Assembly (NCBI GenBank): GCA_009829735.1
Contig: CM020619.1
Location: 15,443,816-15,507,815, forward strand
Length of the DNA: 64,000 bases
Direction: 5' to 3'
DNA from: Pyropia yezoensis
Taxonomy: Eukaryota > Rhodophyta > Bangiophyceae > Bangiales > Bangiaceae
The notes beneath the pieces were generated by a model, which saw nothing but the letters and a program-made list of their open reading frames with translations, was not told the origin of the DNA and did no database searches. A program made the position numbers and the translations under genes. Shown here piece after piece: positions 1,750 through 50,064 of this stretch (positions are counted from its first letter, which is position 1; the number at the start of each line of letters is the position of its first letter).

Positions 1750-3377
1750 TCAGTGGGTAGACCCACTGCCCGAGGGAGGCCACTCACGCGTAAGCGCGTA
1801 TACCTCCGTGCTCCACCGGTCGGCAATGTCACGACGGTCGACCACCCGAGTTACCTCGGTGCATAGCTGGACGAGGGTGCTGCGGCCAGCCTCCACGTCC
1901 TCCAGAGCTTTCTGGAGGCGGTCCAGCACGCCACCGAAGCAACGCGCTGACCCAACCAGCGCAGCACCTGGGGGGATATCCCCCCAGCTAACAGAGAGAC
2001 CCCCACGCATTGCGCGGGTAACAAGGGCGTCAACGCCCTCATACCAGAGACGGGGACCCCCATCATGTAGGACAGGGGCGGGAGGTGACACTGACGCAGC
2101 CAGAGGAGCCACAGGAGCCGACACGGCTACCACCGGAGCCGGTGGCACCTGATACGAGGCCCGGTAGGACCCTACCGAAGAGGCTCCACCGTAACCACGG
2201 CGGTACTCCGCCCGACGACGGGACACCTCACGCTCCCCACCCACAGAGCCCCACTCTCGGGGACGACGGCCAACCGCCGCCGGCATCGGGTTACCGAACC
2301 ACGGAGCAAGGACCTGAAGAGGGTCATGGATAAACATGGGAATACCCAGGTCAGCAACAGCCTCGGTGGATGCCCACCCATGGCAACTGGGCTCACCCGG
2401 CTGAGTACGCCGGACACGCAACGAGTGACGAGGCAAGGGGGAAGCCCCAGCCTGCGGGTCCCGGTACGGGGGAAGGGCCAACACCCCAGCCCAGTTCACG
2501 GCATCGTGAACAGCCAGCAGGGCTTCGAACTCCCGGGCCAACCCGGTCTTGGCGGCTATCAGATCCACGCTCAACTGCGCGATGTGCCGACGGACACCCG
2601 TCGGAAGATGAAACAGACGACCCTGCCGGCGGACGGACAGCAAGAAGGATGAAGCCTGCCCGAGGGTAACCTCAAGGGTGAAGGTACCCTGCAACGGGTG
2701 GACCGGTCGCGAGGCCAACACACTCCCGAAGTAGCGAAGACAGGAGCCGGTGTCAAACCGGAAAGCAGGGGCGGGTTCCCACCCCTCCTGCCATAGCGGC
2801 GGGCGCACGGGAGTGTATACCGGAGCACGACCGTTGCCGGTCTGCAACGCACACGTTATATCGGTGCGGAACGCATCCGCCATGACACCATGGTTACGTC
2901 GCCAACTCGACGCCGACTTCAACCCCGCCATGGGCGGGTAGGGAGCCGTCAACGACAGATACGGGGGTACCCCCGGGTAGTAGTCAAAGTCGGGATACCG
3001 ACCGGTACTGCTCAACGTCTCCCCAAACGCAACCGGCTCCGCCGCCGCCGCAATCCCCCGAGCACTAGCCGGGTAGTCAATCTCCCGCGGCAACGCGGGG
3101 GCAATCAGGTCGCAGACCCCGAAGTTGGGGTCGAGGTAGACCTCACCCCGTCCCACCCGGGTGCGCCAGAGCTGCGCATGCCGGTCGTCCGGCTGACTCA
3201 GGATCCAATGGTGTTCCACCCGGACCGCGTTCGGCTGGTTGACCAGCCGCACCAACTCCCGCTCCCAGCTCGGGTCCACCTTGAAGCGCCTGGAGGACTC
3301 TCCACGGGGATGCACCAGGTGGAAGTCCACCCGCATGCGCCCATCGGACTCCATCGACTCTTGCACCGTGAGGCCTC
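1750..3377 (-). pseudogene. Element A antisense ORF (aORF), C-terminal part, split by element B
   Basis: This minus-strand segment encodes about 542 residues and ends with TGA at 1752-1750. It is the C-terminal two thirds of the aORF; the N-terminal part is at 13037-13856 beyond element B. Together they would make 2448 nt, 815 residues. The core includes VDPSWERELVRLVNQP and HHWILSQ, then a region rich in aromatic and proline residues. The same protein is encoded antisense in element C (31537-33666). I recognise no domain, signal peptide or membrane segment. Apart from the B insertion the frame is intact. Confidence 0.75.
3373..3377. repeat. Target-site duplication GCCTC, left copy (element B)
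   Basis: GCCTC lies immediately before the B 5' LTR (TGTAGCATCC) and recurs at 13032-13036 immediately after the 3' LTR (TATACCACA). Five bases is the normal duplication length for Gypsy integrases. Confidence 0.95.
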
Positions 3378-3950
3378 TGTAGCATCCCTGGCCCCGACTT
3401 GGCGCCGACCCGGGACTGCAACCAGAGGGCACCAGGTGCCAGAACACGACCGCCGTGTGGCGATGGTTGGCGGCCGTGGCCCGTGCCCGGCACTGGGATG
3501 CGGTGGACTACGCTATCCACACGCGAGAGAGGGATTTCTGATGTGTTTTTGCATATTTGTGAGGGACTTGATTTGAGAGAATTTGAGTGTGAGATTAGTG
3601 AGTGGGAATAGAATTAGTAGTGATAGTGGCCCCCGACCTGACGAGGTTAGACTCGGGTCGGGGCCACTCGGGGTTATGGGGGGGGCTACCGGGCCAACGT
3701 GCCGGGGTTCCCCCAGATGCACGTTAAGAGGGACAGCGAGGCGCCCTCGGCCCGCGCCCTCAGGGAAAAAGACAACTGCGCGTTTGCTTTCCTCTTCCCC
3801 GTGTGCACTACCGTGCGTATCTGTTTGCTCTGCGAGCAGGCACGTGAGGCAACAGGCATACCATTCTCGTAGTTCCCCTTTCTGCGTTACCTGTCCCTTT
3901 CCCCCGAGGGATATTGACACGTGTCTGAGAGGATCGAGTTTTATACCACA
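3378..3950 (+). repeat. Element B 5' LTR (573 bp)
   Basis: It starts TGTAGCATCC and ends TATACCACA, giving the TG..CA ends of retroviral-type LTRs. It matches 12459-13031 at every position I compared. It should carry the promoter for gag-pol. Confidence 0.95.
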
Positions 3951-3954
3951 TATT

Positions 3955-3972
3955 TGGTGGAGCAGCAGGGGA
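3955..3972 (+). promoter_or_regulatory. Primer-binding site of element B
   Basis: TGGTGGAGCAGCAGGGGA begins four bases after the LTR. Its complement has the layout of a tRNA 3' end: T-stem side, acceptor CTGCTCC, discriminator A, CCA. The matching tRNA would begin GGAGCAG; I cannot name its amino acid. The same 18-mer occurs in element D (26133-26150), with single changes in C and G. Confidence 0.8.
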
Positions 3973-4159
3973 TTGGAGTGTTTGAGAAGAGACATTTGGG
4001 AGCAGCGGTTGCGTTGTTCCTATTCTGTCTTTTTCTGTGGTTTGGGAATTATTTGCACCCGTTCACGGGAACCCCATTCCTGGCTCTCCAACCCCTCTCT
4101 TGTGGTCTTGCGATCTTTGGACACGCAGGTAACTGGACTGTGGCTGTCAAGAGACCAAC

Positions 4160-5920: not shown

Positions 5921-6846
5921 GGCAGGCGCTCTCCCCAAGTGTCTTCCCGAATCTCCAACGGCAGGGTACTTCTACCTGTTCTCCCCTTGCGTGCCGGGAG
6001 AAAGGACGGCAGTTACCTGCTCAACCGGTAGCCGCCTGGACACCCTGTTTGTTCAAGGGGACCTTGCTCGTCCTGCGTAAGGAAAACCTCAAGATTAATG
6101 CTCGTATGCGTGTGGGGGATAGCCTCCCCCAAGCTGTTACGCCGGTGGTCGACACGGGAGCCGGACCAAGCGTCATCACTGAGAACCTGTTACCTCCGGG
6201 CTGGCGTCGACATGCCTGGAGAGCGCCTACCAAGACCCGGATTGTAGACGCATCAGGTCAAACCCTACGACCGCTTGGCCGTCTTCCCGTCGCCATCTAT
6301 GTCAACAATGAACCAATGCTTTTTCCCTTTCTAGTAGTCAAGACCTTATCAGTCCCCCTCATCCTAGGCTGGGACTTCCAGAAGCAGCATATCAAGAGCA
6401 TCCTACCCGGAGAAGGAAAGGTGCAGTTCAACCATGGGTTTGTGTCACCAGTGCTGGAGCACCTGGACACCAAGGTTCGTGTGGCCAAGAACCAGAAGGA
6501 ACGCATCCCACCCTCTACCTTGACCCTCATCAAACCGGTGCTCCTACCTCCTCGCTCGGAGACCAAGGTTCAAGTCACGACCCGGACTGCAGGTCAATGC
6601 CTGATCTACGGACGCAAGGAATTTCTGGCGAAACACCGATTATACCTAGCCCACGGACACCACAAGAAGGTGGAGAGGCACACCCCGTTCTCGGTGCTGA
6701 TCGTCAACGTGAGCCGGAAGCCAATAACCCTCGCCAAGGGCACTCGAGTTGGTACAGCAGAGCCTTACCGGGGGTCCGCCCGCGCTATGAGCAAGGAAGA
6801 CCTCTTCAACCTGCAACAAGAGCTGGCATCCAACTTGACGGCCTAA
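5914..6846 (+). CDS. Element B protease domain (pol frame, expressed by -1 frameshift)
   Basis: This is the retropepsin-like aspartic protease that matures Gag-Pol. The frame continues from the slippery site; its first internal ATG is 6103 and the track of open codons runs to TAA at 6844-6846. The active-site motif is VVDTGAGPSVI, near 6146-6178. Further down, PLILGWDFQ gives the second conserved hydrophobic-Gly motif of the fold. RT lies in the same frame just past the TAA. In element C the same join is open, so the TAA is either a recent lesion or a recoding stop. Confidence 0.85.
   Translation, partial: RVGQALSPSVFPNLQRQGTSTCSPLACREKGRQLPAQPVAAWTPCLFKGTLLVLRKENLKINARMRVGDSLPQAVTPVVDTGAGPSVITENLLPPGWRRHAWRAPTKTRIVDASGQTLRPLGRLPVAIYVNNEPMLFPFLVVKTLSVPLILGWDFQKQHIKSILPGEGKVQFNHGFVSPVLEHLDTKVRVAKNQKERIPPSTLTLIKPVLLPPRSETKVQVTTRTAGQCLIYGRKEFLAKHRLYLAHGHHKKVERHTPFSVLIVNVSRKPITLAKGTRVGTAEPYRGSARAMSKEDLFNLQQELASNLTA
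6844..6846 (+). other. In-frame TAA between protease and reverse transcriptase of element B
   Basis: The only interruption in the element B pol frame is this TAA (context GCC TAA GAC). Element C reads through the equivalent region without a stop. The LTRs look identical, so the element moved recently, either with this stop present or with help in trans. Confidence 0.8.
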
Positions 6847-9800
6847 GACGTATCTCCGGAACAAGAGCAGGCTGGCCGTACTACTCCGAAGCCCGAACAA
6901 GCACCGCCCGGGATGCCGAAGGTCAACCAAGAAAACGTCCCTCTCGACTTGAAGGAGGCACTGGAGAAGCTTCTCCAGGAACATCGGCACCTGTGGTCCG
7001 GAGAGCTGGGCAAGATGGACGCCACCCTACACCGGATTCAACTCAAGCCAGATGCCAAACCAGTGCACATGCACCCATACCGGGCTGGACCTCATCGCCG
7101 GGATGAGATTGAGAAGCAGGTTAACAAGATGCTCAAGATGGATGTTATCGAGCCGTCTGATGGCGAGTGGGCTTTCCCGGTGGTAGTCGTCCCGAAACCT
7201 GGCGGTCACTTCCGTTTCTGCGTTGACTACAGACGCCTGAACGAGATGACAGTCAAGGATGTATACCCGATACCCCGGATGGATGATTGCCTCGACTTTC
7301 TTGGTGATGCCACCCTCTTCTCGACGCTGGATTGTAATGCCGGTTACTGGCAGATCCCTCTGGCTGACGAGGACAAGGACAAGACTACCTTCACGTGCCA
7401 CATGGGACTGTTCCGGTGCAAGCGTCTCCCTTTTGGTCTCACTAATGCTCCGGCAACCTTCCAGAGAGCCATCGACATCATCCTGTCGGGGCTAAGGTGG
7501 AGAACATGTTTGGTCTACCTGGACGACATCATTGTTTTCTCCAAGACCCCAGCGGAACACCTGGAGCACCTTCGAGAGGTCCTGGCCCTCCTGTCCAAGG
7601 CTGGAGTTACCCTCAAGGCCGAGAAGTGCCACCTGTTTGAGACTGAGGTGGAGTACCTGGGGCACGTGCTGAGTCCGGGGGAGCTCCGAGTCAATGAGAA
7701 GAACATCAAGGCCCTCCGGCATGCACGGCAACCTAAAACCCAGACGGAACTCAAGAGCTTCCTGGGTATGTGCAACGTCTACCGCCGGTTCGTACGAGAC
7801 TACGCTCTGATTGCCCGGCCCTTGACCAAGCTTACTAGCAAGAAGCTTCCAGCACAACTCCCGGTGTTCGACGAGAAGCAGACAGCAGCCTTCGAAGAGC
7901 TCAAGAAGCGCCTGACCACCACTCCAGTACTGGCGTTACCCAAGCGGGAGGGTCAGTTTGTTCTGGAGACTGATGCCTGTGGCGTCCAGGTGGGGTGCTC
8001 ACTACTCCAGCAGCAACCTGATGGGCACTTCCTCCCGATAGGCTACTACAGTCGCGTCTTGACTCCAGCCGAGAAGAACTATTCCACGACCGAGCGCGAG
8101 TGCTTGGCGGTCGTCTGGGCTTGCTTCCTATTACGTCCATATCTTGAAGGACAAGAGTTCCTCATCCGGACGGACCACGCCAGTCTAAGGTGGCTGCTAT
8201 GCATGGACAGCAGTCAAGGAAGGGTCGCCCGGTGGCGCCTACGCCTTTCGGAGTTCAAGTACAAGGTGTGCACCAGAGCAGGGAGGGAGCACCACTGCGC
8301 CGACACCATGTCCCGGCTGGAGACTCCTGCAGCCGATACCGGTCCTATCCCGGAGGAAATACCTTGCTTCATCCTCCCGAATGTCGGACGTGGCTGGCAC
8401 GCTCCCCTGTACGAGACACCTGACGCTCATCAACCGGTAACCATTCACCGGATGCTGGAGGCACAATTGACGGACCCTCAATGCTTGGAGCTTCGCCACC
8501 AAATGGACCTGAACCGGAACAGTCGCTTCTCCGAGTCTACAGACGGACTCCTGGTACGGGTGTCACCCTTCGATGGGGCAACTCAAGTCTACGTACCCCG
8601 GAGCCTACGGACTGACATCCTACGCCTGGAGCACTCGTCTCCCCAGGCCGGGCATCCTGGTATCAATCGGATGTATGCTTCCATGAGACGACATTATTAC
8701 TGGGAAACCATGGCCAGTGACGTCCATAAGTGCCTGGAGGCTTGTATTTCTTGTGCAAGGAACCGGTTGTCCCAGAGGAAGAAGACTTCTAAGCTACGCC
8801 TATTCCCTGCGGCGGAGCCCTTTGCAAGCTTAAGCATGGACATCCTGGGGCCCCTACCTGAGACCTCCAGTGGCAACATATACCTGCTCATCATTTGTGA
8901 CCGGTTCTCCAAGTTCACTCGAGCAATCCCGTTGAGAACCATCACGGCTCTGGATGTCACGTCGGCCTTCTGCGAGTACTGGATAGCTGCCTACGGCCCT
9001 CCAGACTCCGTCTTAACCGACAACGGTCCCCAGTTTGCATCCCTGTTCTTCCAAGGAGTCTGTGACCTGATGGGCATCAAGAACTTGTACACCACGACGT
9101 ACCACCCTCAAACGAACGGCCAGGTGGAACGATTCAACCGGACCCTAGTGGACATGCTACGGCACTACGTGGAGGAGCACCAAGAAGACTGGGACGAGCT
9201 CCTGGCTGTCCTCACTCTAGCCTACAACTCCCGAGTTCACCGGACAACGGGAGTCGCTCCACTCGACTTTGTCACCCCGAGGCGGCTGACCAACTTCTCC
9301 CTGGAAAGAATACCGGATGGTCTCCAGCCTGCACTGAAGTCAGGTCCCAAGGCAAAGGATGAGTTCCTGGAACAACTAAAGCTCCTGCTCCCAAGAGTCA
9401 AGGAGTCAATTTCAAAGACCCAGGAGCGATACAAGCGGGACTATGACAAGGGTGTCCGGGAAAAGAACAAGGAACTGGGTGGTGGCGACTGGGTTTTTGT
9501 GGACAACCATAGCAAGACCCGGGGGAAGCTGGACTCTAAGACGGATGGACCTTATGAGATTCTCAATACGGATGGCTGGACCTTCCTTCTAGACGTGGAT
9601 GGCTCTCCGTACCGGGTGAGCAGCGACCATGTCACCCGAGCTCCACCGCCAAGCCAACGGGACTTGACCCGGCGTAAGCGGACTGCGATACCCTGGCTAT
9701 CCCAAGAAGAAGGTCGGGAATTTGTCTACGTCAAGTTTGTCGACCATGCCTGGAGAGATGGACGCCTGTACCTGCGAGTACGCTGGTTCGGTTTCAACCC

Positions 9801-10008
9801 GGCAGATGATACATGGGAACCCTCAAACCGGCTACCCATCGCGGACGTCTGTGCCTACACGCGACGGAACGGGATTGAGGGCACTCCCGTGGCCAGAGCC
9901 GGCAAGATTCTGGAGTCGGACACGGAGGAGGACCAAGAGGACGGGGCCAACCAAGACCCTCGGGACGAGACGAGCTCACCCGCAACGGATGCGGAACAAG
10001 AGGATTGA
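6847..10008 (+). CDS. Element B pol: RT, RNase H, integrase, chromodomain
   Basis: Numbered from the first ATG at 6913 (1031 aa). Reverse transcriptase occupies about 60-330 with the catalytic LVYLDDIIVFS near 198-208. RNase H follows (about 340-470) with ETDACG, TERECLAV and RTDHASLRW. The integrase zinc-binding region (GHPGINRMY .. CISCARNR, about 580-625) precedes the DDE core: MDILGPLP (~641), LTDNGPQF (~700), NGQVERFNR (~735). A chromodomain at about 935-990 (YVKFVDHAW .. RVRWFGFNPADDTWEPSNRL) marks it as a chromovirus. The reading frame is intact to the TGA. It needs the -1 frameshift, and passage through the TAA at 6844, to be made as Gag-Pol. Confidence 0.95.
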   Translation, partial: DVSPEQEQAGRTTPKPEQAPPGMPKVNQENVPLDLKEALEKLLQEHRHLWSGELGKMDATLHRIQLKPDAKPVHMHPYRAGPHRRDEIEKQVNKMLKMDVIEPSDGEWAFPVVVVPKPGGHFRFCVDYRRLNEMTVKDVYPIPRMDDCLDFLGDATLFSTLDCNAGYWQIPLADEDKDKTTFTCHMGLFRCKRLPFGLTNAPATFQRAIDIILSGLRWRTCLVYLDDIIVFSKTPAEHLEHLREVLALLSKAGVTLKAEKCHLFETEVEYLGHVLSPGELRVNEKNIKALRHARQPKTQTELKSFLGMCNVYRRFVRDYALIARPLTKLTSKKLPAQLPVFDEKQTAAFEELKKRLTTTPVLALPKREGQFVLETDACGVQVGCSLLQQQPDGHFLPIGYYSRVLTPAEKNYSTTERECLAVVWACFLLRPYLEGQEFLIRTDHASLRWLLCMDSSQGRVARWRLRLSEFKYKVCTRAGREHHCADTMSRLETPAADTGPIPEEIPCFILPNVGRGWHAPLYETPDAHQPVTIHRMLEAQLTDPQCLELRHQMDLNRNSRFSESTDGLLVRVSPFDGATQVYVPRSLRTDILRLEHSSPQAGHPGINRMYASMRRHYYWETMASDVHKCLEACISCARNRLSQRKKTSKLRLFPAAEPFASLSMDILGPLPETSSGNIYLLIICDRFSKFTRAIPLRTITALDVTSAFCEYWIAAYGPPDSVLTDNGPQFASLFFQGVCDLMGIKNLYTTTYHPQTNGQVERFNRTLVDMLRHYVEEHQEDWDELLAVLTLAYNSRVHRTTGVAPLDFVTPRRLTNFSLERIPDGLQPALKSGPKAKDEFLEQLKLLLPRVKESISKTQERYKRDYDKGVREKNKELGGGDWVFVDNHSKTRGKLDSKTDGPYEILNTDGWTFLLDVDGSPYRVSSDHVTRAPPPSQRDLTRRKRTAIPWLSQEEGREFVYVKFVDHAWRDGRLYLRVRWFGFNPADDTWEPSNRLPIADVCAYTRRNGIEGTPVARAGKILESDTEEDQEDGANQDPRDETSSPATDAEQED

Positions 10009-10153
10009 GAAGAAGGGAACGGGTATATCAAGGAGAACACGCAATGCAAGCATGGAACAATCAAGGAAACCAAGCACCCGCTCGAGCAACCCTTCTCTCC
10101 GCCTCTTCCCTCCTCGCTTCTCCCAAGACCCTCACCCTCCTTGCCTCCAACTA

Positions 10154-12601
10154 CTACTCTCGGCGCGGACGCTGAGCCGAGGGAGTGTCCTCCGGCGCTG
10201 CCCCCGCGGTACGACGGGAACCGGAGGAAGACGGGATGACGTAGTGCGGTGGACGCGGCGCATCCCGGTATGACGCCATCGGAGTAGTACCAGTAGTTGC
10301 CGGTGGCTCCCGCTCATCCAGATATGTCCGTCGGCGCCGCTGGAAGCCCGTGAAGGTCTCTGACCACTGCTGGGCCAAGCCATGCCGCGTCAAAGTCGTC
10401 AGAAGTTCGCCAACCACCGGGTTGTTCGACATCTGGCCGCTGTCCGCGCAAGCAAACACCCGGTCGACCACGTCGTTCAAGACACTGGCGTAGGTGCCCA
10501 GCACCAGGGAGGACCCGACGCCTTCAACCTGCACCGGAAGACGACCCAGCTGGTCTTCAATCATGCCGACGTCGTACTGGTCGCATGTTGGACCACCTTG
10601 GTTCAGGTACCAGTCAGGCACCCGGAAGCGGGTAAGGCGCAGAGTCGGCGCCGGAATCTCGAACCGGCCCGAGGATGACACTACCGGACGGTCCACAACG
10701 GCCCCCGAGACCGGAGTACCCAACTCCAGCGGAGGCACAGCGCCGCCGGCGTTGGAAGAAGGCGTCCGGGGTAGAGCGACCGGAGTAGTCGGCGACCGCA
10801 CGGCTACTCCCAGACTCGCCGCAGACAAGCGCGGTGCCGGAGGAGCTTGAAGTACCGGCACAGCAGGAACAGGGCGCGGACGCGCCGGTGACGGTTCAGG
10901 CGAGGCAACCGGGGCGACAGGGGCAACAGGAGGAAGCGGAGCCGCCGCAGACGCCCGACCGACCGCCGCGGTCCATCCCGACTCCTGTACCGGCGGCCCA
11001 ACTGGCAGAAGATCAAGGGCGGCCGGAGCAGGAAAGCTACCTAGCTGCGGCCACGCCGGAAGCGGCGTCGCCAGCTGCACCTTAGCCGGAGAAGACTGGT
11101 AGACCACCTGCGCCCAACCGTAGCCATCCCGACGCGGGCGGTTCTGGTCGGCAATCGCGTTCAAGAAGCTCCGGTCATGCACCGGTACCAGACGCCGGAA
11201 GTCGATCATCGCCTGGAAGAGCTCCTTGTACTCCTCGTCCTCGCTGCACAGGAAGTCGACGGTCAACTTGTCGACAATCCAGACCATCAGGAGGTCGGGG
11301 AGAAACCAAAGCCGGTTGGACACCAAGACCTCGTGAAGCCAGTGGTTGGCCGCCAAGACTGTCATCTCGGACGTGTACATCATGTACGGGATTGAATGGA
11401 AGAAGCCCTTGATCGACGCCTGAGTCAAGGCGTCCAAGAAGTACCAGGTGCAAGGGATGCTGGAAGGAGCAAACCCGACCGGGATCTCGACTTCCTGCTG
11501 CTGCGGGATGACCTTGGGGTAGTATGCCGCCCGGTTGGCCTTGTCCAGCTTCCAGAACTCCTGATGATTGCAGCTCACGATGAAGTCACGCTGACGCCCG
11601 CGTCGCTCACCCTGCTCCCGTGCCGGCGACAACTTGGAGTATTTCCGGGTCAAGAAAGGCGGCTCCAGAGCGACCATGCTCGGACGGGGGTCGCAGTTCA
11701 AGCTTCCCGACCCCTTGAGCGCCTCGTCCCAGACCTTGAGCGCCCGGTGGACGTACCCTTCCTCCTCCGGCCACCGGAGAATGGACGCGGACACGCGACG
11801 CTCGGTCAAGGGTAGATCCAGTACCAGCGCGAAGGGGAGATCCTCCAGACGAGCAACCCAAGAGGAACCCGAGAAGCTCTGGGAGCGGTCTTGTGCCAGG
11901 CGCATCTGGTCCGCCGTATGAAGACGTGCCTTGTCCATCTCGGTCAAGACCCCGCGCTGGAGTTCCTTGCGCCAGAGGTCCATGCAATCCTGCTGGCACT
12001 GGGCCGCGCCGGCGTTGCCAACCACCGTGGAGTAACGCCGGGCCGCCAGAGGGTCCTGCCCAAGGAGCATCTCCGGGAGACCCTCCGGGGGGGCCTCGAC
12101 CGGGTGCATCGCGGAAGCCGGGGGAACTCGATCCGTCCCCGCCGTGGCGACCGGCGCCGGCACCGACATCCGAGGAACCGGAGGCAGGAGAGGGGCACGA
12201 CTACCCGAGTTCTCCTCCGCAACACTCGCCGCCGGAACCACGGGCCCAGCTTGGATCTCGGAACTGGACATCCCGTCCAGACTCCGGGGAACGAGAGGGC
12301 CAAGGTGAAGGAGCGGGGGGGGGGGGGGGCAGAATCGGGGCAGGTGATCGTGACCGGGGTGAAGACGCTCGACCTCGGCACCGGTGTGGACGTGCTCGAG
12401 GCTGTGCACGGTGGCACCTGGTTCGGCCCGAGGACGTGCCGGACTAGGGAGGGAGCTATGTAGCATCCCTGGCCCCGACTTGGCGCCGACCCGGGACTGC
12501 AACCAGAGGGCACCAGGTGCCAGAACACGACCGCCGTGTGGCGATGGTTGGCGGCCGTGGCCCGTGCCCGGCACTGGGATGCGGTGGACTACGCTATCCA
12601 C
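10154..12601 (-). CDS. Element B antisense ORF (aORF), unknown protein
   Basis: This uninterrupted 815-codon minus-strand ORF lies between pol and the 3' LTR, ending 145 bp from the pol stop. The longest frame begins at 12601 inside the LTR; a more natural start may be ATG 12271 (MSSSEIQAG), giving about 705 residues. The N-terminus and residues 500-620 are Pro/Ala-rich. The middle has ordinary globular composition (RPSMVALEPPFL, DFIVSCNHQEFWKLD, EMTVLAANHWLHEVLVS). Similarly placed ORFs exist in A/C, D/E and F. I recognise no known family, signal peptide or membrane span. No comparable sense ORF covers this stretch, so it is not a shadow. Confidence 0.78.
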   Translation of the reverse strand: MDSVVHRIPVPGTGHGRQPSPHGGRVLAPGALWLQSRVGAKSGPGMLHSSLPSPARPRAEPGATVHSLEHVHTGAEVERLHPGHDHLPRFCPPPPPLLHLGPLVPRSLDGMSSSEIQAGPVVPAASVAEENSGSRAPLLPPVPRMSVPAPVATAGTDRVPPASAMHPVEAPPEGLPEMLLGQDPLAARRYSTVVGNAGAAQCQQDCMDLWRKELQRGVLTEMDKARLHTADQMRLAQDRSQSFSGSSWVARLEDLPFALVLDLPLTERRVSASILRWPEEEGYVHRALKVWDEALKGSGSLNCDPRPSMVALEPPFLTRKYSKLSPAREQGERRGRQRDFIVSCNHQEFWKLDKANRAAYYPKVIPQQQEVEIPVGFAPSSIPCTWYFLDALTQASIKGFFHSIPYMMYTSEMTVLAANHWLHEVLVSNRLWFLPDLLMVWIVDKLTVDFLCSEDEEYKELFQAMIDFRRLVPVHDRSFLNAIADQNRPRRDGYGWAQVVYQSSPAKVQLATPLPAWPQLGSFPAPAALDLLPVGPPVQESGWTAAVGRASAAAPLPPVAPVAPVASPEPSPARPRPVPAVPVLQAPPAPRLSAASLGVAVRSPTTPVALPRTPSSNAGGAVPPLELGTPVSGAVVDRPVVSSSGRFEIPAPTLRLTRFRVPDWYLNQGGPTCDQYDVGMIEDQLGRLPVQVEGVGSSLVLGTYASVLNDVVDRVFACADSGQMSNNPVVGELLTTLTRHGLAQQWSETFTGFQRRRRTYLDEREPPATTGTTPMASYRDAPRPPHYVIPSSSGSRRTAGAAPEDTPSAQRPRRE
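12316..12329 (+). repeat. Poly-G tract in aORF B / near 3' LTR
   Basis: A run of about 14 G on the plus strand reads as a proline run in aORF (PPPPP). It is a slippage-prone site and a likely place for assembly error. Confidence 0.7.
12441..12458 (+). promoter_or_regulatory. Polypurine tract of element B
   Basis: GGACTAGGGAGGGAGCTA directly precedes the 3' LTR. The AGGGAGGGAG core is the expected plus-strand primer. Confidence 0.65.
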
Positions 12602-13031
12602 ACGCGAGAGAGGGATTTCTGATGTGTTTTTGCATATTTGTGAGGGACTTGATTTGAGAGAATTTGAGTGTGAGATTAGTGAGTGGGAATAGAATTAGTA
12701 GTGATAGTGGCCCCCGACCTGACGAGGTTAGACTCGGGTCGGGGCCACTCGGGGTTATGGGGGGGGCTACCGGGCCAACGTGCCGGGGTTCCCCCAGATG
12801 CACGTTAAGAGGGACAGCGAGGCGCCCTCGGCCCGCGCCCTCAGGGAAAAAGACAACTGCGCGTTTGCTTTCCTCTTCCCCGTGTGCACTACCGTGCGTA
12901 TCTGTTTGCTCTGCGAGCAGGCACGTGAGGCAACAGGCATACCATTCTCGTAGTTCCCCTTTCTGCGTTACCTGTCCCTTTCCCCCGAGGGATATTGACA
13001 CGTGTCTGAGAGGATCGAGTTTTATACCACA
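12459..13031 (+). repeat. Element B 3' LTR (573 bp)
   Basis: It is the same sequence as 3378-3950, from TGTAGCATCC to TATACCACA, followed by the GCCTC duplication. The 5' end of the longest aORF B frame lies inside it on the opposite strand. Confidence 0.95.
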
Positions 13032-13036
13032 GCCTC
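13032..13036. repeat. Target-site duplication GCCTC, right copy (element B)
   Basis: It is a direct copy of 3373-3377, placed immediately after the LTR end. Confidence 0.95.
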
Positions 13037-13856
13037 TAACCCGAGCCACCAAGTCGGACACCGACATGGCGGGTTGACCCGCCGCCACGGCGACGCCGCC
13101 ACCCAACGGGGCAACCCGGGCAGGACCAGGAAGAATCGGGGGCGCCGGGGGACGCACCACCGGCAGAGGGGCCGACGTCGGAGATGGACGAGGCCGAGGA
13201 GGAAGAAGAAGGGCGGGCGCCCGCCCGGAGTAACTCCCGGTGTCAACCGCCATGGGAGAAGGAGCGTCTTGACCGCTCGACACCCGCGGCACCGCAGGTA
13301 TGGTACCGGCGCCGGCACCACCCGTCGGCGTAGCCCCCGCCTCGGAAGGGGAAGGCACTTGGACAGCCTCCGGATCCGGAGCCCCGGCCGTGCGGGCACC
13401 CGCACCGTCTTGACCCGCCGCACCGGGTGTCGCACCGCCACCACCACCCGCGTCAACGTCGGGACCGCCTCGAGGAGTCACCGCCCGGACACCCGGACCA
13501 CCTTGACCAGCCGGAGTCGGCTGCGGGTCGCCACCTCCGCCGCAGGGCGGACCATCTTGAGGTAGCTGCGGTGAGCCGGCACCGGCACCAGGCTCCATCC
13601 GGGCAGCCGGCAGAGAGGGGGTAGAAGCCGCCACGCGCGGTTGACCGCCGGGTTGACCGCCGGCCGACGGCACCGTCGTGCCGCTGCACACGGACGACAG
13701 TCCTCCGGCCGACAGACGGACGGACACCGCAGGCCCGTCGTCGTCAGACGAGCTCACCCCGTAACGCGCGGCGTCGGGACCGACAGGCGCGTCGTCCTCC
13801 ATCTCCTCCCCGATCAGGAGGTCTTCCTCCTCTTCAAGCACCTGGGGATAGGACAT
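13037..13856 (-). pseudogene. Element A aORF, N-terminal part
   Basis: The first ATG in frame is at 13856 (MSYPQVLEEEEDLLIGEE). The segment encodes an acidic N-terminus and then a long Gly/Pro/Ala-rich, probably disordered stretch. It ends at SDLVARVRG, where element B is inserted; the protein continues at 3377 with LTVQESMES. Element C encodes the matching junction without interruption (DLVARVRGMTVQESMDS near 32020). Frames running on from here into the B LTR are artefacts of the insertion. Confidence 0.75.
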
Positions 13857-14414: not shown

Positions 14415-14776
14415 TGTAGCAATATGGTTGTCCGTATTGTGACCCTAATATTAGGGGGGCTACTTCTAATCCTTAACTTCAATTTGAGAGTCCGAGCTGG
14501 TCACGGTATCTATAAGTTACGTATGACCAGAGGGACTTGCATCTTGGGGTGGAGGGTAGTTAGTAGTGTCTCCGAGGGTTTATAACGAGGGGGCCGGTGG
14601 CGAATCCACCGCCGGCCAAGGTAGAACAACAAACCCCTCCCATTTGGGCTCCCATCTTGGTCCCGTGGCTTGCGCTCCAAGGACAGCAACCTTGGCCTCC
14701 CGGTGACGTTGGTGCCGATCCCCCTTGGTGAGTGTTCCCTGAGAGTGGACGTGCGACGGATTCCTATTGTGCTACA
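14415..14776 (+). repeat. Element A 3' LTR (362 bp)
   Basis: It runs from TGTAGCAATATGG to TATTGTGCTACA, with short inverted ends TGTAGCA. An inverted homologous copy at 40700-41062 (363 bp) is the 5' LTR of element C, which assigns A and C to one family. Both contain a TTTATAACGAGGGGG segment next to a GGCCGGCGG-type palindrome. Confidence 0.93.
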
Positions 14777-25661: not shown

Positions 25662-26130
25662 TGTGGCAGTATTGACTCCCAGGTAAGGGGCAACACGTCC
25701 CATGCAAGGGGCAGCAGGCCACTAGCCTGACCCGTTCCTCCCCCTGCATTTGGGTCCATATTCCCTAAGTTTGGGATAGTTAGCTTAGTAGTAAATCCAA
25801 CTTGGATTTGAGGGTTTTCTGCATTTATCGTCTTGAATTTTCGTGTGGCCCAGTGGGCAGGTGCTGGGGTGAGAGATTTTAAGTGGCGAGATTCTGAGGG
25901 GACCCTGGGGGGAATAAGGGGAGGGACAGCGGGGCTTGGCCTTGCTTCCCCGTCCCGACCAAGAAACTGTTGGACCACACACCATCTTCTTGTTTGTCAG
26001 TGGGGGGATTGCCCCACAACAGGGATAAAGTGTGTGCGACTTGCACTTCTTCCGGTTCCCCCGACACGGGAGGCAGCCCTTGTGCACCGCCCCAACTTGG
26101 GTGTCGCGTGTGCGAGAGGTTTTTGCCACA
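25662..26130 (+). repeat. Element D 5' LTR (469 bp)
   Basis: It starts TGTGGCAG and ends TTGCCACA, with 7 bp inverted ends. Related copies are at 31068-31536 and 42545-43015. Confidence 0.92.
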
Positions 26131-26132
26131 TT

Positions 26133-26150
26133 TGGTGGAGCAGCAGGGGA
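26133..26150 (+). promoter_or_regulatory. Primer-binding site of element D
   Basis: TGGTGGAGCAGCAGGGGA lies two bases after the LTR. It is identical to the element B site although LTRs and coding regions have diverged. Confidence 0.8.
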
Positions 26151-26249
26151 CAGAGGTAAACTTTACCTCCGGGTGCACCCGGGTGTAGGGGGCCCTCTGT
26201 CTCAGAGGAACGGTGGACTTGGACCGTGTCATACGGATCGTCAGCCAAC

Positions 26250-28196: not shown

Positions 28197-29065
28197 CCAT
28201 TGGAGCTGGCCGTCCTAAGCTCACAACGGCGGCCTGGGCCAAGTGGGTCAAGAGGACGAACCAACTCTGCCGGATACTGCGCCGACCAAAGAAAGTCCGC
28301 CCATCTCGGGTAGGACTCCCCAAGAACGTAAACCCACGTCGGGTCATCGCGGTGCTGACGGGTGAGAACTTCCAGGTGGCTGGACGGATGCAACTAGCCC
28401 CCGGCCGTGCCTGTTGTGCCCGTATCGTACTTGATACCGGGTCAGAAGCCTCCTTGGTACGCAAGTCGCTATTACCAAAGGAGGTGAAGCTCCAACGCTG
28501 GAGGTCTAAGGCTGACCATATGATCGACATCAATGGTGGGGTACTTCCCATCGTTGGTGCCGTAACCCTACCAACTAGGTTGGGGACCCATGAGGTCGAC
28601 GTGACCTATGGAGTAGTTGAGAATATATCGGTACCCCTGCTTCTGGGTACCCCTTATGTTGTTACACAAGTGCCTTTGATTTGTTGCCCTGAGTATTGGG
28701 TCAAGTTGATGAATGGGGAAACCATCCCCATCCTTGGTAAGGAAAAGTCTGTGGCTCCTGTGACAGTCTCACAGTCGAAGCCTGCTTGCTCTGTGAGAGA
28801 AGAGTTTACTGCTACTCTGCGTTTAGCCCGTGAAGTCACGTTGCCCCCCAACTCGGTGGCGCACGTGGATGTTGTAACTGATTATACGGGGAACGGGTTG
28901 GTGCACCCTCACCCCCGCCTTGCTCGCAAGCACCAAGTGCATGTTGCCCTTGGCACGATGGACTCCAAAGCCGGAGTCCCGTGGCGGATCCAGGTGATGA
29001 ACCTGAGCTCTTCGCCGAAGTACTTCAAGTCGGGAGCCAAGTTCGGCTATATCGACCAACATTAG
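28193..29065 (+). pseudogene. Element D protease region
   Basis: It lies in the -1 frame relative to gag. The aspartic protease motif is VLDTGSEASLV (near 28430), with LLLGTPYVV as the second conserved segment. It ends at TAG 29063-29065, after which RT continues in the same frame, so the stop is a lesion within PR-RT. Product of this fragment alone would lack polymerase. Confidence 0.8.
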
Positions 29066-29917: not shown

Positions 29918-30900
29918 GCCCGCCGCTGAACACAGGACACCCAGGTCGACATGACCTCGAGGAGCCACTGGGTGGCCAACATGGCCCACACCAGATGATC
30001 TGGGCTAGCCGTCATCATGAAGGAACCGAAGTGGTCGAGCAACCGTGGCAGCAACGCCGAGAGCCCGTAGGGGACCTCAACTTAAGGCCACCACTCGGGT
30101 TTCTTCGGGTAGTACTGCTCCTTACTGGCAGCGGACTACTGCGGAAACTCAAGTTGAGCCGAGGTCACCAAGTAGGGACCTCGCCGGAAGTCCTTCTCCA
30201 TCCGCACATCAAAGTGATAAGTGTGCGGATCGGCCTCGTGAAGGTACGGGGGGCGAGTTGCCACCGCGTCCCAAGTAAAGGTCGGCAAGTTGCCGGGACC
30301 CGGGATAGTTCCCCCGCGGTCCACCATGGCCTTGGCCCGCTGCACGTCCTTGACCTCCTCATCGTCCACGAAGGCAAACTGGTCCGTCCTGAAGCCGGCA
30401 GGGAACCCGACGCTACAGGGATACTTCTCCCGTAGGCGGTCCCATACCCGACCCATCGCTGGGCCAAGTCGGCCACAGCGAAGAACAGTCAACCCCTCCT
30501 CATACAGAGGCCAAGCGGGGTAAAACCACCGCCCCAAGGCCTCACGCGGGACAACGTGTCCCGCCTCCGGGGGAGATCCCGCCGTCAACCCAAAGCCGGG
30601 CGACGCGGGCGGCCCATCCCCCGGAGTAACCGCGGAGCCCCCGCCGGAAGTCCCGGCGGGCGCCGCACCGTAGGAGGTGTCCTCCATACGTTTATCGAGG
30701 GAGTCCGTCTCCACCCCCGGGGTCGCCATGGTTCTCCCCAAGTTGGGGAGAGACGCCCTGGCTACAGCGGCACGAGACCCGCCTCGAGTTGAGGGGGACT
30801 CGGATCGTGGGTAGACGGGTGGCTTCCCCAGCGTGGGGCGGCCCAGGGGAAGGTGAAGGGGATGTGGTGGTGGTGGTGAAGTGAGAACCGGGGAGAGCAA
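29918..30900 (-). pseudogene. Element D aORF, C-terminally truncated, two stops
   Basis: The minus-strand frame is nearly parallel to the aORF of E (41063-42635). The longest open block starts at 30900 (TTG); the conserved ATG 30729 (MATPGVETD) is likelier. Nonsense codons TAG (30138-30136, CAG in E) and TAA (near 30080, CAA-like) leave one frame without indels. Core motifs are RWFYPAWPLYEEGLTVLRCG, FTWDAVATRPPYL, PYLVTSAQLEFP and MLATQWLLEVMSTWVSC. The C-terminus is lost at the internal deletion near 29917. Confidence 0.7.
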
Positions 30901-31067
30901 GCTGCCAAGTGGGCAAGCTTGAGGAGAGGGGCGGTCAACGTGACCGCCTCCACATCCGCGTTACGTACTCGAGGGGGGACAGCAAGTCGCGCCCCCAACG
31001 CCGAGACGTGCGTTTACGCACCCCCTCACAGGGCCGACCGGGTCGGTCGGAACTGTGGAGAGGGGAG

Positions 31068-31536: not shown

Positions 31537-33666
31537 GCTGCCTCTACCCCTACTCCTCCGGCGGCCCGGATGGCTCCCGTCGCCGGTGCCGGCGCGGCTC
31601 CACCTCAAGACGGCGTCGCCTGTGTATTGGACGGTCGTGGCGGCACCCCAACCGGGACGGCTGGTCAAGACGGCGCGGGTGCCCGCCCGGTTGGTGTGTC
31701 CGTGGTGGCGGGTAACGGGTCTACCCCTGCTGCCCCCGTGGTGCCCACGTCGGGCCCGGGTGGCGGCGATGCTCTGCCCGCGGTGCCGCGGGTGCTTGGT
31801 GGTCAAGAAGTGTCTACCCCGATGGCGGTGGACTCCGGGAGTTACTCCGGGCGGGCGCCCGCCCTTCTTCTTCCTCCTCGGCCCCGTGCTATTCCGATGC
31901 CGGCCCATCTGCCGGTGGGGCTCCCCCCGGCGCCCCTGATTCGTCCTGTTCCTGCCCGGGTTGCCCTGTTGGGTGGCGGCGTCGCCTCGGCGGCCGGTCA
32001 ACCCGCCATGTCGATGTCCGACTTGGTGGCTCGGGTTCGAGGCATGACTGTGCAGGAGTCGATGGACTCCGCTGGGCGCATGCGGGTGGACTTCCACGAG
32101 CCGCGTCACCCTGGAGAGTCCCCCCGGCGCGTCAAGGTGGACCCGAGTTGGGAGCGGGAGTTGGTGCGGCTGGTCAACCAGCCGAAAGCGGTCCGGGTGG
32201 AACATCATTGGATCCTGAGCCAGCTGGACGACCGGCATGCGCAGCTCTGGCGCACCCGGATGGGGCGGGGTGAAGTCTACCTCCACTCCGCCTTCGGGAT
32301 ATGCGACTTGATTGCCCCCGCGTTGCCGCGGGAGGTTGACTACCCGGCTAGTGCTCGGGGGGTTGCGGCGGCGGCGGAGCCCGTGGCTTTCGGGGAGACG
32401 GTGGGTGATACCGGCCGGTATCCCGGGTTTGAGTACTTCCCGGGGGTATCCCCGTACCTGACGTTGACGGCTCCGTACCCGCCCATGGCGGGGTTGAAGT
32501 CGGCGTCGAGTTGGCGACGCAACCATGGTGTCATGGCGGATGCGTTCCGCACCGATATAACGTTTGCGTTGCAGACCGGTAACGAACGTGCGCCGGTGTA
32601 CACTGCCGTGCGCCCGCCTCTGTGGCAGGAGGGGTGGGAACCCGCCCCTGCTTTCCGGTTTGACACCGGCTCCTGTCTCCGATACTTCGGGAGTGTGTTG
32701 GCCTCCCGGCCGGTCCACCCGTTGCAGAGGACCTTCACCCTTGAGGTTACCCTCGGGCAGGCTTCCTCCTTCTTGCTGTCCGTCCGCCGGCAGGGGCGCC
32801 TGTTTCATCTTCCGATGGGTGTCCGTCGGCACATCGGGCAGCTGGGCGTGGACATGATAGCTGCCAAGACCGGGTTGGCCCGGGAGCTCGAGGCCCTGCT
32901 GGCCGTTCACGATGCCGTGAACTGGGCGGGGGTGTTGGCCCTTCCCCCGTACCGGGACCCGCAGGCTGGGGCTTCCCCCTTGCCTCGTCACTCGTTGCGT
33001 ATCCGGCGTACTCAGCCGGGTGAGCCCAATTGCCGTGGGTGGGCGTCCACCGAGGCTGTTGCTGACCTGGGTACTCCCATGGTTATCCATGACCCTCTTC
33101 AGATTCTCGCCCCATGGTTCGGTAACCCGATACCGATGGCGGTTGGCCGTAATCCCCGAGAGTAGGGCTCTGCGGGTGGGGAGCGTGAGGTGTCCCGTCG
33201 TCGGGCGGAGCCCCGCCGGGTTAACGGTGGAGCCCCTTCAGTGGGGTCCTACCGGGCCTCGTATCAGGCGCCACCGGCTCCGGTGGTAGCCGTGTCGGCT
33301 CCTGTGGCTCCTCTGGCTGCGCCAGTGTCACCTTCCGCCCCTGTCATGCGAGACGGGGGTCCCCGTCTATGGTATGAGGGCGTTGACGCCCTCATTGCCC
33401 GCGAGATGCGGGAGGGTCTCTCTGTTAGCTGGGGGGATATTCCCCCAGGTGCTGCGCTGGTTGGGTCCGCGCGATGCTTCGGTGGCGTGCTGGACCGCCT
33501 CCAGTCCGCTCTGGCGGACGTGGAGGCTGGCCGCAGCACCCTCGTCCAGCTATGCACCGAGGTAACTCGGGTGATTGACCGTCGTGAGATTGCCGACCGG
33601 TAGAGCATGGAGGTGTTCGCGCTTACGCGTGAGTGGCCTCCCTCGGAAAGTGGGTCTACCCACTGA
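31537..33666 (+). pseudogene. Element C aORF, N-terminally truncated, two TGG-to-TAG stops
   Basis: It is antisense to element C and homologous along its length to the aORF of A. The family D LTR replaces the N-terminus just before AASTP. It runs through DLVARVRGMTVQESMDS, VDPSWERELVRLVNQP and RPPLWQEGWEPAPAFRF. TAG at 33163-33165 and 33601-33603 each replace a Trp codon present in A, and the frame otherwise continues to TGA at 33664-33666. Protein differences from A are few and many base differences look silent, which hints at past selection on this strand. Confidence 0.75.
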
Positions 33667-41062: not shown

Positions 41063-42635
41063 CCACCACGATTGCCTTCTCCGGGGGAGGCGCAGTGTGG
41101 CGTTCCACCCCCGGGGCATATTGGTAGTCCCTGATGCCCAGCCCCTCTTGGAGTACCACACGGCCGTCGTGAAGCTCACGACCGACCCAGACGAACTGGC
41201 ATAGTGTGCCATCGTCCTTGAGCCCGCGGGAGGATCGGCGCAACTTGTGCTCAATGCTCTCTTACTCGATGAGCTTATGGAGGCGCAGCATCGCCTCAAG
41301 AAGAGTGAGCTGTCCTCATGAGCACCCCTCAGCAACTAGCTGAGGGGTGAGCTGTTCCAAACCTTGGATAAGCCGGGTGGAGAGATGCCAGTGCATCCCC
41401 CGCCGCTGGACACAAGACACCCAGGTCGACATGACCTCGAGGAGCCACTGGGTTGCCAACATGGCGAGCACCACGTGGTCCGGGCTAGCCGCCAACATGG
41501 CGGAGCCGAAGTGGTCGAGGAACCGTGGAAGAAACGCCGGAAACCCGTAAAGGACCTCGACTTGAGGCCACCACTCGGGCTTTTTGGGGTAGTGCTGCTC
41601 CTTGATAGCAGGTGACTGCTGCGGAAACTCAAGTTGAGCCGAGGTCACCAAGTAGGGACCTCGCCGGAAGTCCTTCTCCATCCGCACATCAAAGTGATGA
41701 GTGTGCGGATCGAAGTCGCGAATGTACGGGGGGCGAGTTGCCACCGCGTCCCAAGTGAAGGTTGGCACGTCGCCAGTGCCCGGGATAGTACCCCCGCGGT
41801 CCACCATGGCCTAGGCCCGCTGCACGTCCTCGACCTCGTCCTCATCCAGGAAGGCAAACTGGTCCGCCCTGAAGTCGGGAGGAAGCGCGACCTTACGGGG
41901 GACCTTCTCCCTTACGCGGTCCCATACGCGACTCATCGCTGTGCCAAGTCGGCCACAGCGGAGAACAGTCAACCCCTCCTCATACAGAGGCCAAGCGGGG
42001 TAAAACCACCGCCCCAAGGCCTTCCGTGGAACAACGCGGCCCGTCTCCGGGGGAGATCCCGCCGTCAACCCAAAGCCGGGTGACGCGGGCGTCCCATCCC
42101 CCTGAGTGATCGCGGAGCCCCCGCCGGAAGTCCCGGCGGGCGCTGCATCGTAGGACGTGTCCTCCATACGCTCGTCCAAGGAGTCAGTCTCCACCCCCGG
42201 GGTCACCATGGCTCTCCCCAAACCAGGGGGAGACGACCTGGTTGCAGTTGCACGAGACCCACCTCGAATTGAGGGGGGCTCGGACCGCGGGTAGATGGGT
42301 GGCCTCCCCAGCGTGGGGCGCCTCAGGGCAAGGTGAACAGGATGTGATGGTGGTGTTGAGGTAAGCACCGAGGAGAGCAAGCTGCCAAGTGGGCAAGCTT
42401 GAGGAGAGGGGCGGTCAACGTGACCACCTTCACGTCCACGTGACGTACCGGGGAGACAGCAAGTCGCGCCCCCAACGCCGTGATGTGCGTATCTACGCCC
42501 CATCGCAGGGCCGACCGGGTCGGTCGGAACTGAGGAGAGGGGAGTGTGGCAGTATTGACCCCCAGGTAGGGGGGGGCAACACGTGCCATGCAAGGGGCGG
42601 CAGGCCACGAGCCTGACCCGTTCCTCCCCCTGCAT
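41063..42635 (-). pseudogene. Element E aORF with point stops, cut by element C
   Basis: The frame opens at ATG 42635 inside the LTR and reads out of it. It holds MVTPGVETDSLDERMED, RWFYPAWPLYEEGLTVLRCG, YLVTSAQLEFPQ and MLATQWLLEVMSTWVSC. TAG at 41811-41809 replaces the Lys codon seen in D (QRAKAMV); TGA near 41318 and TAA near 41262 follow. Beyond these the frame continues with VWVGRELHDGRVVLQEGLG to VV at 41063, where the C LTR begins. It gives the fullest view of the D/E aORF. Function unknown. Confidence 0.72.
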
Positions 42636-47804: not shown

Positions 47805-50064
47805 TCAGTACCCTCGATAATGGTGGGACGACGGGGGGTAGGTCCCATACCCGGAGGAACGGTACGGACCTGTCCAGGGCTCCCCCTCACGATCGGCGAC
47901 CGAAGAGCGACTTCCCGCTGAAGCGGGTGCCCAACCATAGGCAGGTCCCGCGGTCTCTCCATAAGGAGCGGTCGGTGACGGAGCCTGGCTCCGAGGAGGC
48001 ACCTGGGCCCGCAGTGCCTGGGTATGAAGGGCTTGCATATCCACTAGGGCCCGCGTCTCAGAAGTCGCGGCCCCCAACTCACGACGCATACGCGTCGTGA
48101 GATTCTCCGCCGACAGGTCCGCTTCAGCGGCCTGGCGCTGAGGAAGAGAGGCGCCCGCCCACACGCCGGCCATATCGTTGGCCAAGCCTTTATAGGCTCA
48201 GAGTAACGCCATGGCCAGCACTGGCTGGGTGGCGAAAGTACACTCCGCCGGGAGGTCCTCCCCAACGGAGGTCCTCATCCCGAACAGGAGTTGGGGAGAC
48301 ATAGTGCCCCCCACCTCCAGACGAAGTTCGGGGTTCCACCGAAAAGGTGGAACCCTCGGAGGGGCAACCAGACGGTTACCCCCATAACCCGCCTCGTGGG
48401 CAGCACGGCCTCGACCGGGAGGCGCCCGGGCGATACCCCCGCCTCGGCATTTCCAGGCCAAGGCCGTCGCAGGCTGTCCGGCGACAGCACCCGCACCAGC
48501 GCGGGGAGCTTCAGCTCCCGGCGGTCGGGGTGGGTCACAGGGGATCCGGTCGGACCCCCAGAGGGAAGAGCCCCCACCCGTAAGGAAGGGACGCTCCTCG
48601 AGAGGAACAACCTCTCCCAACTCGGGGAAGACCTTTGCGCCCTCCCGGCACATCTTCACCTCGGAGTTGGGTACCCGAGTAGAGGCGTCGACACCCTCAC
48701 CATAAGGTAGGGTCGCAATGTCGAGTCCCTCCATAAGGAGGAGCAGCTGATCCCCAGGGGAGAGCTCCCGGGAGTCCACAAGGAGCCCTCGGCGGCCGCC
48801 TTGATCACGGAGGCGCTCGTCTGGTACAAGCGACCTCACCTGCCGAAGGAGTTGAAGGCCCTCATCCAAGAGGCCCGCCTTTCTGAGCCCTCCTCTCGAA
48901 AGAGGAGGGAAGTGTCCAACGCCGAAACAGCCTCTATAAGGGCTCGTTCAAGAGCCATAAGTGGCCATGAAACGTAACGGCGGACAAAAATGTGTCCGCC
49001 ACTTCCACAAACCAAGCGGTGGAGGCCATGGAATTCTGCAGCCCCCCTGAAGGGGAGCGGACAAGAAGACTCCCTCGTAGGAGGAAGAAATATGGAAGAC
49101 GGCTGGCCATTCCCCGCGGGACCTCCAAGGAGGACCACCACGAGGGTACGGCCGGATAGAGCCCCCCCCTCATCAGGGTGGGGACATCATGGTACTCCTT
49201 CTGCTCCCCGTTAATGAAAAGTCCAGGAAACTGCCGCAGTCGCCACTCCGCCAGAGAGCCCTGGGTATAGTACCCGGGGTCATCCAAGCCGAGGATGGGA
49301 ATGGGCCCCGGGTAGTACCGGAGGTCGGTGCATGGCCCCTTCCCTATGAATGGGAGACCCGCCAGTATCTCCTCGACCACCTTGAGGAGGTCTATATCAG
49401 ACCGATTCCTGTAAGAGGGCAAGTCCGATGGCAATGCCTCCGACACGGTATAAACCGTGCCGTACTGCATGCGCAGGTTGCGCCAGACGCTGACCAACGG
49501 TAGAGCACCGACCGCTTGGTACCGTCGGTGGGAAATGCTAGACGACCTGGGGCCCTTGATCGAATCGTACCGATCCACGTCGATAGCGACGAGTGGTACG
49601 CCCCGGTAGACGTCGACCCCTTCAGGGGACGTGGAGGATGACCCCCCGATGAGGGGGGCCGACCCACGGTCATACTTTGGCACGTCATCGACCCCCATAG
49701 GAAGGTGATCTCCTGGAGACGACATAGTGCCCGCCCAAAAGAGCGGCCCTGCAAAAAGGAGGATGACGCCCGCCCGTAGAGGGGGCGGGTCGAAGACGAC
49801 GGCGCCCGCCCAGAAGAGCGGCGCCACAAGAAGAAAGGCGCCCGCCCACGGCGGCAACACGCCCAGCAAGAGTTTGCCCGCCCACAGCGGCGGCGCGACG
49901 ACGACGAAATCTCCCGCCCTTAGCGGCAGCGCGCTGGGAAGGAAGAGGCGCCCGCCCACAGCGGCGGCGCGCCGAAAAGGAGGCGCGCGCCCACAGCGGC
50001 AGCGCGCCGAGGAAGAGGCGCGCGCCCACAGCGCCGGCGCGCCGAGGAAGAGGCGCGCGCCCAC
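47805..50064 (-). pseudogene. Fourth antisense-ORF lineage (F), broken
   Basis: Minus-strand blocks 50064-48934, 48869-48198 and 48185-47805 form one decayed protein; a frameshift lies near 48930 and a nonsense codon at 48198-48200. The region after MSSPGDHLPMG (about 49720) has ordinary composition: PLVAIDVDRYDS, DLRYYPGPIPILGLDDPGYY, GLYPAVPSWWSSLEV, MASTAWFVEVADTF. Spacing of YP..WW..EV and the W-F/L-x-E-V motif resembles aORF of D/E and B. It is assigned to aORF by this weak similarity alone; sense pol is not found beside it. Confidence 0.5.

Follow-up and report, generated by a model that had tools for sequence, protein, structure and literature searches.

The 64,000-nucleotide window analysed here (C2:15443816-15507815 of the nori red alga Pyropia yezoensis, Bangiales) contains several Gypsy long terminal repeat (LTR) retrotransposons. 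One of these, element B (3378-13031, nested in element A), carries an open reading frame (ORF) that lies antisense to gag-pol, between pol and the 3' LTR. We show that this antisense ORF (aORF) is under purifying selection as a protein; it is almost certainly coding, and very probably an accessory protein gene of ancient origin that belongs to the element. Such antisense genes have so far come to light in LTR retrotransposons as single cases, mostly from flowering plants. That the gene described here is an old protein-coding part of the Gypsy elements of this red alga is shown by selection, by frame-respecting indels, by homology across families and by a tree that matches that of integrase. 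An earlier note on this DNA had proposed long antisense ORFs as a standing part of these elements; its interpretation is supported, and the underlying observation is partly confirmed.

Element B is a recent ("fresh") Gypsy insertion, with 0 of 573 differences between its LTRs and a GCCTC target-site duplication. Its pol has the protease, reverse transcriptase (RT), RNase H, integrase order of a Ty3/Gypsy chromovirus (Pfam), with a chromodomain match at the integrase end that falls under the cut-off (E 0.00033, 20.9 bits; cut-off 25.1). On the minus strand, a frame of 815 codons that opens with GTG (12601..10154) converges with pol, its stop lying 145 bp past the pol stop. Within the interval between pol and the LTR (GC content 64.7%), the longest stop-free frame measures 767 codons on this strand and 235 codons on the sense strand. 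None of 1000 dinucleotide shuffles of the interval reached 700 codons on either strand, the maximum being 470, which rules out chance or a GC effect as the source of the frame. Two statements of the earlier note, that the LTRs of B are identical and that no sense ORF of similar length lies opposite, thus hold.

The beginning of the gene is marked by variation among 28 B copies (8 including the window's own, and 20 more), which served for the analyses of indels, stops and omega, the ratio of nonsynonymous to synonymous rates (dN/dS). Indels that are not a multiple of three are confined to the part of the 815-codon frame that precedes codon ~105; downstream of this point there is a single indel, of 9 bp and in frame. 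A stop lies upstream of Met111 in 10 of the 28 copies, and the frame from Met111 to the stop is open in 26, the other two (L047 and L050) carrying a stop. Because of these frame-breaking indels and stops, we place the start at Met111 (12271), 188 bp internal to the 3' LTR edge, which gives a product of 705 residues. The uninterrupted 815 codons noted earlier therefore exist as an open frame, but an 815-residue protein read from GTG is ruled out by the same frameshifts and upstream stops. The genome listings for A and B comprise the best-scoring copies among the matches listed; of the copies scored there, 38 of 55 in B lack a stop across the 815-codon query, as do 78 of 80 in A across 541 codons.

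The leader between Met111 and the LTR consists of two contrasting parts. Variation is free in the 94 bp adjoining the ATG, where a poly-C run occurs, whereas the 93 bp next to the LTR hold no shared variable site; the LTR of the B copies is likewise well conserved. The presumed sense-strand polypurine tract would fall within the conserved 93 bp. This stretch is compatible with a putative antisense promoter at the LTR edge, and the polypurine tract could account for part of its conservation.

Substitutions among the B copies follow the antisense frame. Changes common to at least two copies comprise 80 synonymous and 28 nonsynonymous (548 and 1567 sites, respectively; omega ~0.12), and fixed differences between two B subfamilies comprise 21 and 10, with a mean omega between the subfamilies of 0.15. 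The excess of synonymous changes has a P of 2e-25 for shared and 1e-6 for fixed changes (simple binomial). By codon position, the shared changes are distributed 15/16/77, so that 77 of 108 occupy third positions. Omega is 0.95-3.7 in the two shifted frames of the same strand and 0.73-5.2 in sense-strand frames 0 and 2; it is low (0.16-0.39) in sense frame 1, as expected from geometry, because the third positions of this frame coincide with those of the aORF. The tail of pol, compared in 23 of the B copies, shows 23 synonymous and 3 nonsynonymous shared changes, 9 and 4 fixed differences, and 21 and 38 singletons. The density of shared synonymous changes is 0.146 in the aORF and 0.117 in pol (P 0.34); synonymous sites in the aORF are thus as variable as those of pol, which argues that the protein, rather than the RNA, is conserved.

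Ratios below one, as opposed to the values near 1 that the earlier note named as counter-evidence, are also found outside B. For the A/C pair, omega is 0.45 in the aORF and 0.09 in integrase, though C is decayed, and for the D/E pair it is 0.50 in the aORF, though both are decayed. Pairwise aORF values are 0.16, 0.16 and 0.41 in family G35, 0.23-0.69 in E, 0.28-0.74 in F and 0.38 in G31, where, as in family A, columns in windows below 45% identity were left out and the values are lowered as a result.

Homologous antisense genes are present in six divergent Gypsy families of the genome: A, B, E, F, G31 and G35, of which F, G35 and G31 were found by searches with E-type and F-type ORFs. The genome searched comprises 107,475,971 bases, with three long contigs of 43.59, 34.33 and 29.39 Mb; the genome report gives 48.0% repeats for P. 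yezoensis, with LTR retrotransposons predominant (PMC7423979). The genome also yields one phycobilisome match. Comparisons of family profiles connect G35-F (5e-42), G31-E (1e-28), G31-F (4e-16), G31-G35 (5e-14), F-E (2e-13) and G35-E (4e-12). Family B matches L060, L056, L057 and L020 by tblastn (3e-7 to 2e-5), and its profile matches those of G31 and E (3-4e-5). The most distant family, A, matches E at 4e-6 and, over 246 columns, a pooled profile at 1.6e-9 (reversed control 0.51). Two reversed controls of the family-pair comparisons are taken up below; the remainder are 0.11 or higher, and the lowest among the pooled-profile comparisons is 0.006. Protein similarity between families persists at ~20% identity, and most families share the core pattern E..YYP..P.WW..VEVP.GF ... 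GS ... W..EV ... G.LW.LP (alignment A2).

For the five lineages in which both genes could be compared, the integrase and aORF trees agree on the branching A, B, (G35,(G31,E)), with supports of 74 to 100; F is represented in the aORF tree alone. Taken with the homology, this agreement most likely means that the gene is older than the divergence of these Gypsy lineages and travelled with pol. Homologues extend to Pyropia vietnamensis, another member of the Bangiales, where they are known from protein sequences alone. A search with an alignment of 11 members returned eight proteins, four of which are P. vietnamensis gene models with 45-52% identity to the first query, the others having 49-58% (three) and 97% (one). 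An A-type search returned three, at 48% (P. vietnamensis), 76% and 96%. With B alone, the search yielded one near-identical protein, and the 11-member alignment was required to reach P. vietnamensis.

The layout is a constant feature of these elements genome-wide, as the earlier note had suggested. In B, with at least 55 aORF and at least 81 pol places, all 28 neighbouring pairs of aORF and pol within 3 kb converge, with one constant gap; in A, with at least 80 and 101 such places, all 25 neighbouring pairs converge with gaps of 462-509 bp. Among the matches listed, 53 B pol and 76 A pol places are without a listed aORF. Five B copies picked by pol alone all have the aORF at the expected place, clearly uninterrupted in two, with a stop in one and with frameshifts in two. 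Including these five, chosen without reference to the aORF, it is present in all 33 B copies examined. The searches with A, E, F, G31 and G35 supplied 30 loci, of which 19 have an opposite-strand pol at the converging side, 11 have no pol within the fetched stretch, and none has a same-strand pol downstream of the aORF. Five loci have pol fragments upstream of the aORF, which we attribute to other insertions.

The predicted product has ~600-815 residues and no membrane span, with a low-complexity N-terminus, a conserved core of ~250 residues, a proline-rich linker and a tail, which is arginine-rich in the E family and of low complexity, rich in G/S/Y/R, in some families. No Pfam family was matched above cut-off by 10 aORF proteins, with weak RING-like, DUF6214 and spanin matches below it, nor by any of 12 alignment members at E<=10 (filters drop most matches above 0.1). 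The proteins showed no integrase or chromodomain match, and searches of PDB and IMG/VR returned no match to the aORF protein. By these searches, with nothing above the Pfam cut-off or in PDB, it defines a protein family so far unnamed. Specific identities were rejected as well. A relation to gag is not detectable (E 0.05 or more in 12 of 12 gag-aORF comparisons). An env identity is rejected on the antisense orientation and on a 19-residue hydropathy below 1.6 in eight of nine proteins, the exception, L033, having a hydrophobic N-terminal stretch upstream of its core. TRP28 (PF04195) is absent from the matches of the 10 proteins at E<=1, from the 12 alignment members and from the genome at E<=10, and its positions G21, P25, L34, P46, N47 and F55 mismatch alignment A2 in spacing when compared by eye.

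Several observations weigh against reading the aORF as an ancient protein gene with a regulatory product. Singletons in the aORF, expected to be near-neutral, also show a synonymous excess (75 synonymous, 72 nonsynonymous; omega 0.34), and mutational bias may contribute to the signal. Replacement sites are under weaker constraint than those of pol (P 0.025), and the pairwise values, already lowered by the omission of poorly conserved windows, reach 0.29-1.27 in family A, at very low divergence. For the A/C pair, dS is 0.153 in the aORF (1753-3377 / 32039-33663) and 0.367 in integrase, a mismatch for which mosaic origin or local constraint are possible explanations. The Met111 boundary is set by indels and stops and draws no support from omega, because codons 1-110 of the leader, read in the same frame, also have a low omega with few changes (synonymous/nonsynonymous: shared 7/4, fixed 2/2, singletons 11/21). 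Among the family comparisons, the profile probability of B to E or G31 is just 71-73%, and a number of single pairs are non-significant (B-A 0.016, B-G35 0.004, F-A 0.017, G35-A 0.011; with A as query, A-B 0.012, A-F 0.17, A-G35 0.025). The reversed controls E-A (6.8e-4) and A-E (2.3e-3), both over 16 columns, are low. Pfam and PDB searches assign the proteins no domain of known function, the protein of B has one basic cluster, so that nuclear action is a guess, and the transcript, the protein product and its localisation are predictions.

The antisense location implies that the protein is not translatable from genomic RNA and would need a transcript of its own. In our best explanation, a single gain of the gene would have preceded the split of this red alga's Gypsy lineages, and inheritance alongside pol would have followed. 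Its transcript would start within the 3' LTR or in the conserved stretch adjoining it, and the protein would be a trans-acting factor whose target is the transcription, RNA or chromatin of the element itself. Action would probably be nuclear, by comparison with Grande gene 23 and HBZ of human T-cell leukaemia virus (HTLV), whose working mode the proposal resembles while being unrelated in sequence. A trans-acting regulator or anti-silencing factor is the most likely role, held with confidence that is evenly balanced, and ranks ahead of a particle component, with an RNA function lower. A particle component, for instance a second RNA-binding or capsid-associated protein, appears unlikely: the gene accompanies gag and pol in every B copy examined and some families have the G/S/Y/R-rich tails, but no relation to gag is detectable and antisense expression would uncouple its dose from that of gag.

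It is distinctly improbable that the antisense RNA is the functional product, pairing with genomic RNA to regulate expression or feed RNA interference. The convergent stops are close enough that the transcripts probably overlap, and an RNA role is discussed for plant elements in a review, yet synonymous sites vary as freely as those of pol and protein similarity is retained between families at low identity. An env-like gene or a transduced host gene would occupy the usual site, between pol and the 3' LTR; the antisense orientation, the hydropathy, the lack of a Pfam family above cut-off and trees that point to old co-inheritance with pol make this very improbable. Least credible, and almost certainly wrong, is a functionless open frame, produced by high GC and hence rare stops or as a shadow of opposite-strand coding. 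The low omega of sense frame 1, which arises via the aligned third positions, and the synonymous leaning of the singletons could be cited in its favour, but the shuffles and the short sense frames contradict it, as do the preservation of one homologous frame across six diverged families and the concentration of shared changes at aORF third positions.

The layout itself is already known from plants, a fungus and, in another form, a green alga (literature on antisense ORFs: PMC7264820, PMC11963269, PMC2774666 and PMC5408684). The plant class termed aORF-3R (Grande gene 23, RIRE2 and Retand) likewise has its ORF downstream of pol and ahead of the 3' LTR, on the strand opposite gag-pol, and most or all members of a family carry it; here the five pol-selected B copies all carry it, three of them damaged. 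The hosts of that class are plants, whereas the host here is a red alga. Retand proteins carry TRP28/PF04195, reported there solely from flowering plants and not found in the red-algal aORF proteins, and Retand is a non-chromovirus, in contrast to the chromodomain-like tail of the red-algal elements. With Grande gene 23, the likeness would be one of expression logic, an own antisense promoter and a nuclear product being predicted here. REM1 of Chlamydomonas reinhardtii is an algal Ty3/Gypsy chromovirus with a reverse-strand coding part, but its reverse frame is a truncated integrase with a GPY/F module and a chromodomain; the elements studied here encode integrase in sense orientation, and their aORF proteins match neither integrase nor chromodomain. 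Boty of Botrytis cinerea is, according to a review, an element outside plants whose antisense ORF likewise follows pol and precedes the 3' LTR; it differs in its fungal host and is likened by layout alone, not by protein sequence. HBZ of HTLV-1 exemplifies the retroviral antisense genes, which are read from an antisense promoter within the 3' LTR and have a nuclear product; it is a retroviral protein without shown relation, comparable in expression logic alone. The earlier view that antisense genes are known in a few plant lineages is thus right for Grande gene 23 and too narrow in view of Boty and REM1. Its further statement that none had been described in such a host agrees with a literature search, mostly outside subscription papers, that found no report of this protein family or of red-algal Gypsy antisense genes.

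A bolder and doubtful extension would make the antisense gene obligatory in bangialean red-algal Gypsy elements, a founding gene of that radiation whose product counters host silencing or activates the element from the opposite strand. If true, plants, fungi and red algae would each have come to an antisense gene at this site, encoding proteins that are unrelated or share at most a very remote ancestry. This would suggest that an accessory gene not expressible from genomic RNA is generally needed. The many near-identical recent copies make the function of such antisense genes directly testable.

The other elements of the window (Table 1) carry the gene in various states of decay. That each of A to E has a long antisense ORF, as previously claimed, is correct as ancestry but not as intact ORFs, since that of A is split and those of C, D and E are broken; a sixth remnant, F, was missing from the earlier list. 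The frame of A was said to be open save for the insertion of B and to measure 815 residues. An uninterrupted relative, L011, does have 815 residues with an ATG start, and the length match with B is a coincidence. C is inverted and abuts D, and E follows C. In D (25662-31536), gag and protease are followed by part of RT, and neither RNase H nor integrase is matched between RT and the antisense region/3' LTR; the element looks like a putative non-autonomous derivative that kept its antisense remnant. Near remnant F lies a gag-like fragment in two frames (51993-52512, minus strand) related to B gag.

Table 1. Features of element B and antisense-gene remnants of the other elements, in window positions
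Feature	Position	Strand	Remark
Target-site duplication GCCTC, 5 bp	3373..3377		second copy 13032-13036
5' LTR of B	3378..3950	+	573/573 identical to 12459-13031
gag of B, 586 residues	4160..5920	+	zinc-knuckle match below Pfam cut-off
pol of B	6049..10008	+	protease 6049-6846; RT, RNase H, integrase, chromodomain-like tail 6913-10008
Antisense gene of B, Met to stop, 705 residues	10154..12271	-	part alignable across families ~residues 200-380
Leader of B antisense gene	12272..12458	-	94 bp variable near ATG, 93 bp conserved near LTR
3' LTR of B	12459..13031	+	identical to 5' LTR
A antisense ORF, C-terminal two thirds	1750..3377	-	cut by B
A antisense ORF, N-terminal part	13032..13856	-	ATG at 13856
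Probable 3' LTR segment of A	14415..14776	+	matches 40700-41062 beside C; assignment inferred
C antisense ORF remnant	31537..33666	+	C on minus strand; two stops; ends at LTR of D
D antisense ORF remnant	29929..31067	-	three stops in stretch translated
E antisense ORF remnant	41370..42544	-	one stop in stretch translated
Antisense-type ORF remnant F	48934..50064	-	homologous to D/E

The pol gene of B shows some features of its own. An in-frame stop (6844-6846) splits protease from RT, despite the identical LTRs. A 1371-codon pol frame is present in 70 of 81 listed B pol copies, one of these with an internal TGA; one other listed copy has B's own 1053-codon frame and one has 1054 codons. The C-terminal part of the protease ORF (6049-6846, plus strand) weakly resembles dUTPase, with a match (E 0.041) that stays under the Pfam cut-off. 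Same-strand B pol copies lie 9091 bp apart at C1:41063998 and 41073089 and 9078 bp apart at C1:15801628 and 15810706, as expected for tandem elements with one common LTR (9081 bp between the LTR starts of B), and an A pol pair at C2:826720 and 835812 is spaced by 9092 bp.

Outside the Gypsy elements, the window contains two hAT transposase-like genes on the plus strand (20800-23268 and 45235-47490), mutually 32% identical, the former being an uninterrupted 822-codon ORF with a hAT dimerisation domain. Two host genes lie on the minus strand: a subtilase (56060-57991) and the C-terminal part of the splicing factor cactin (62947-63996), which short tandem repeats adjoin at 62707-62947.

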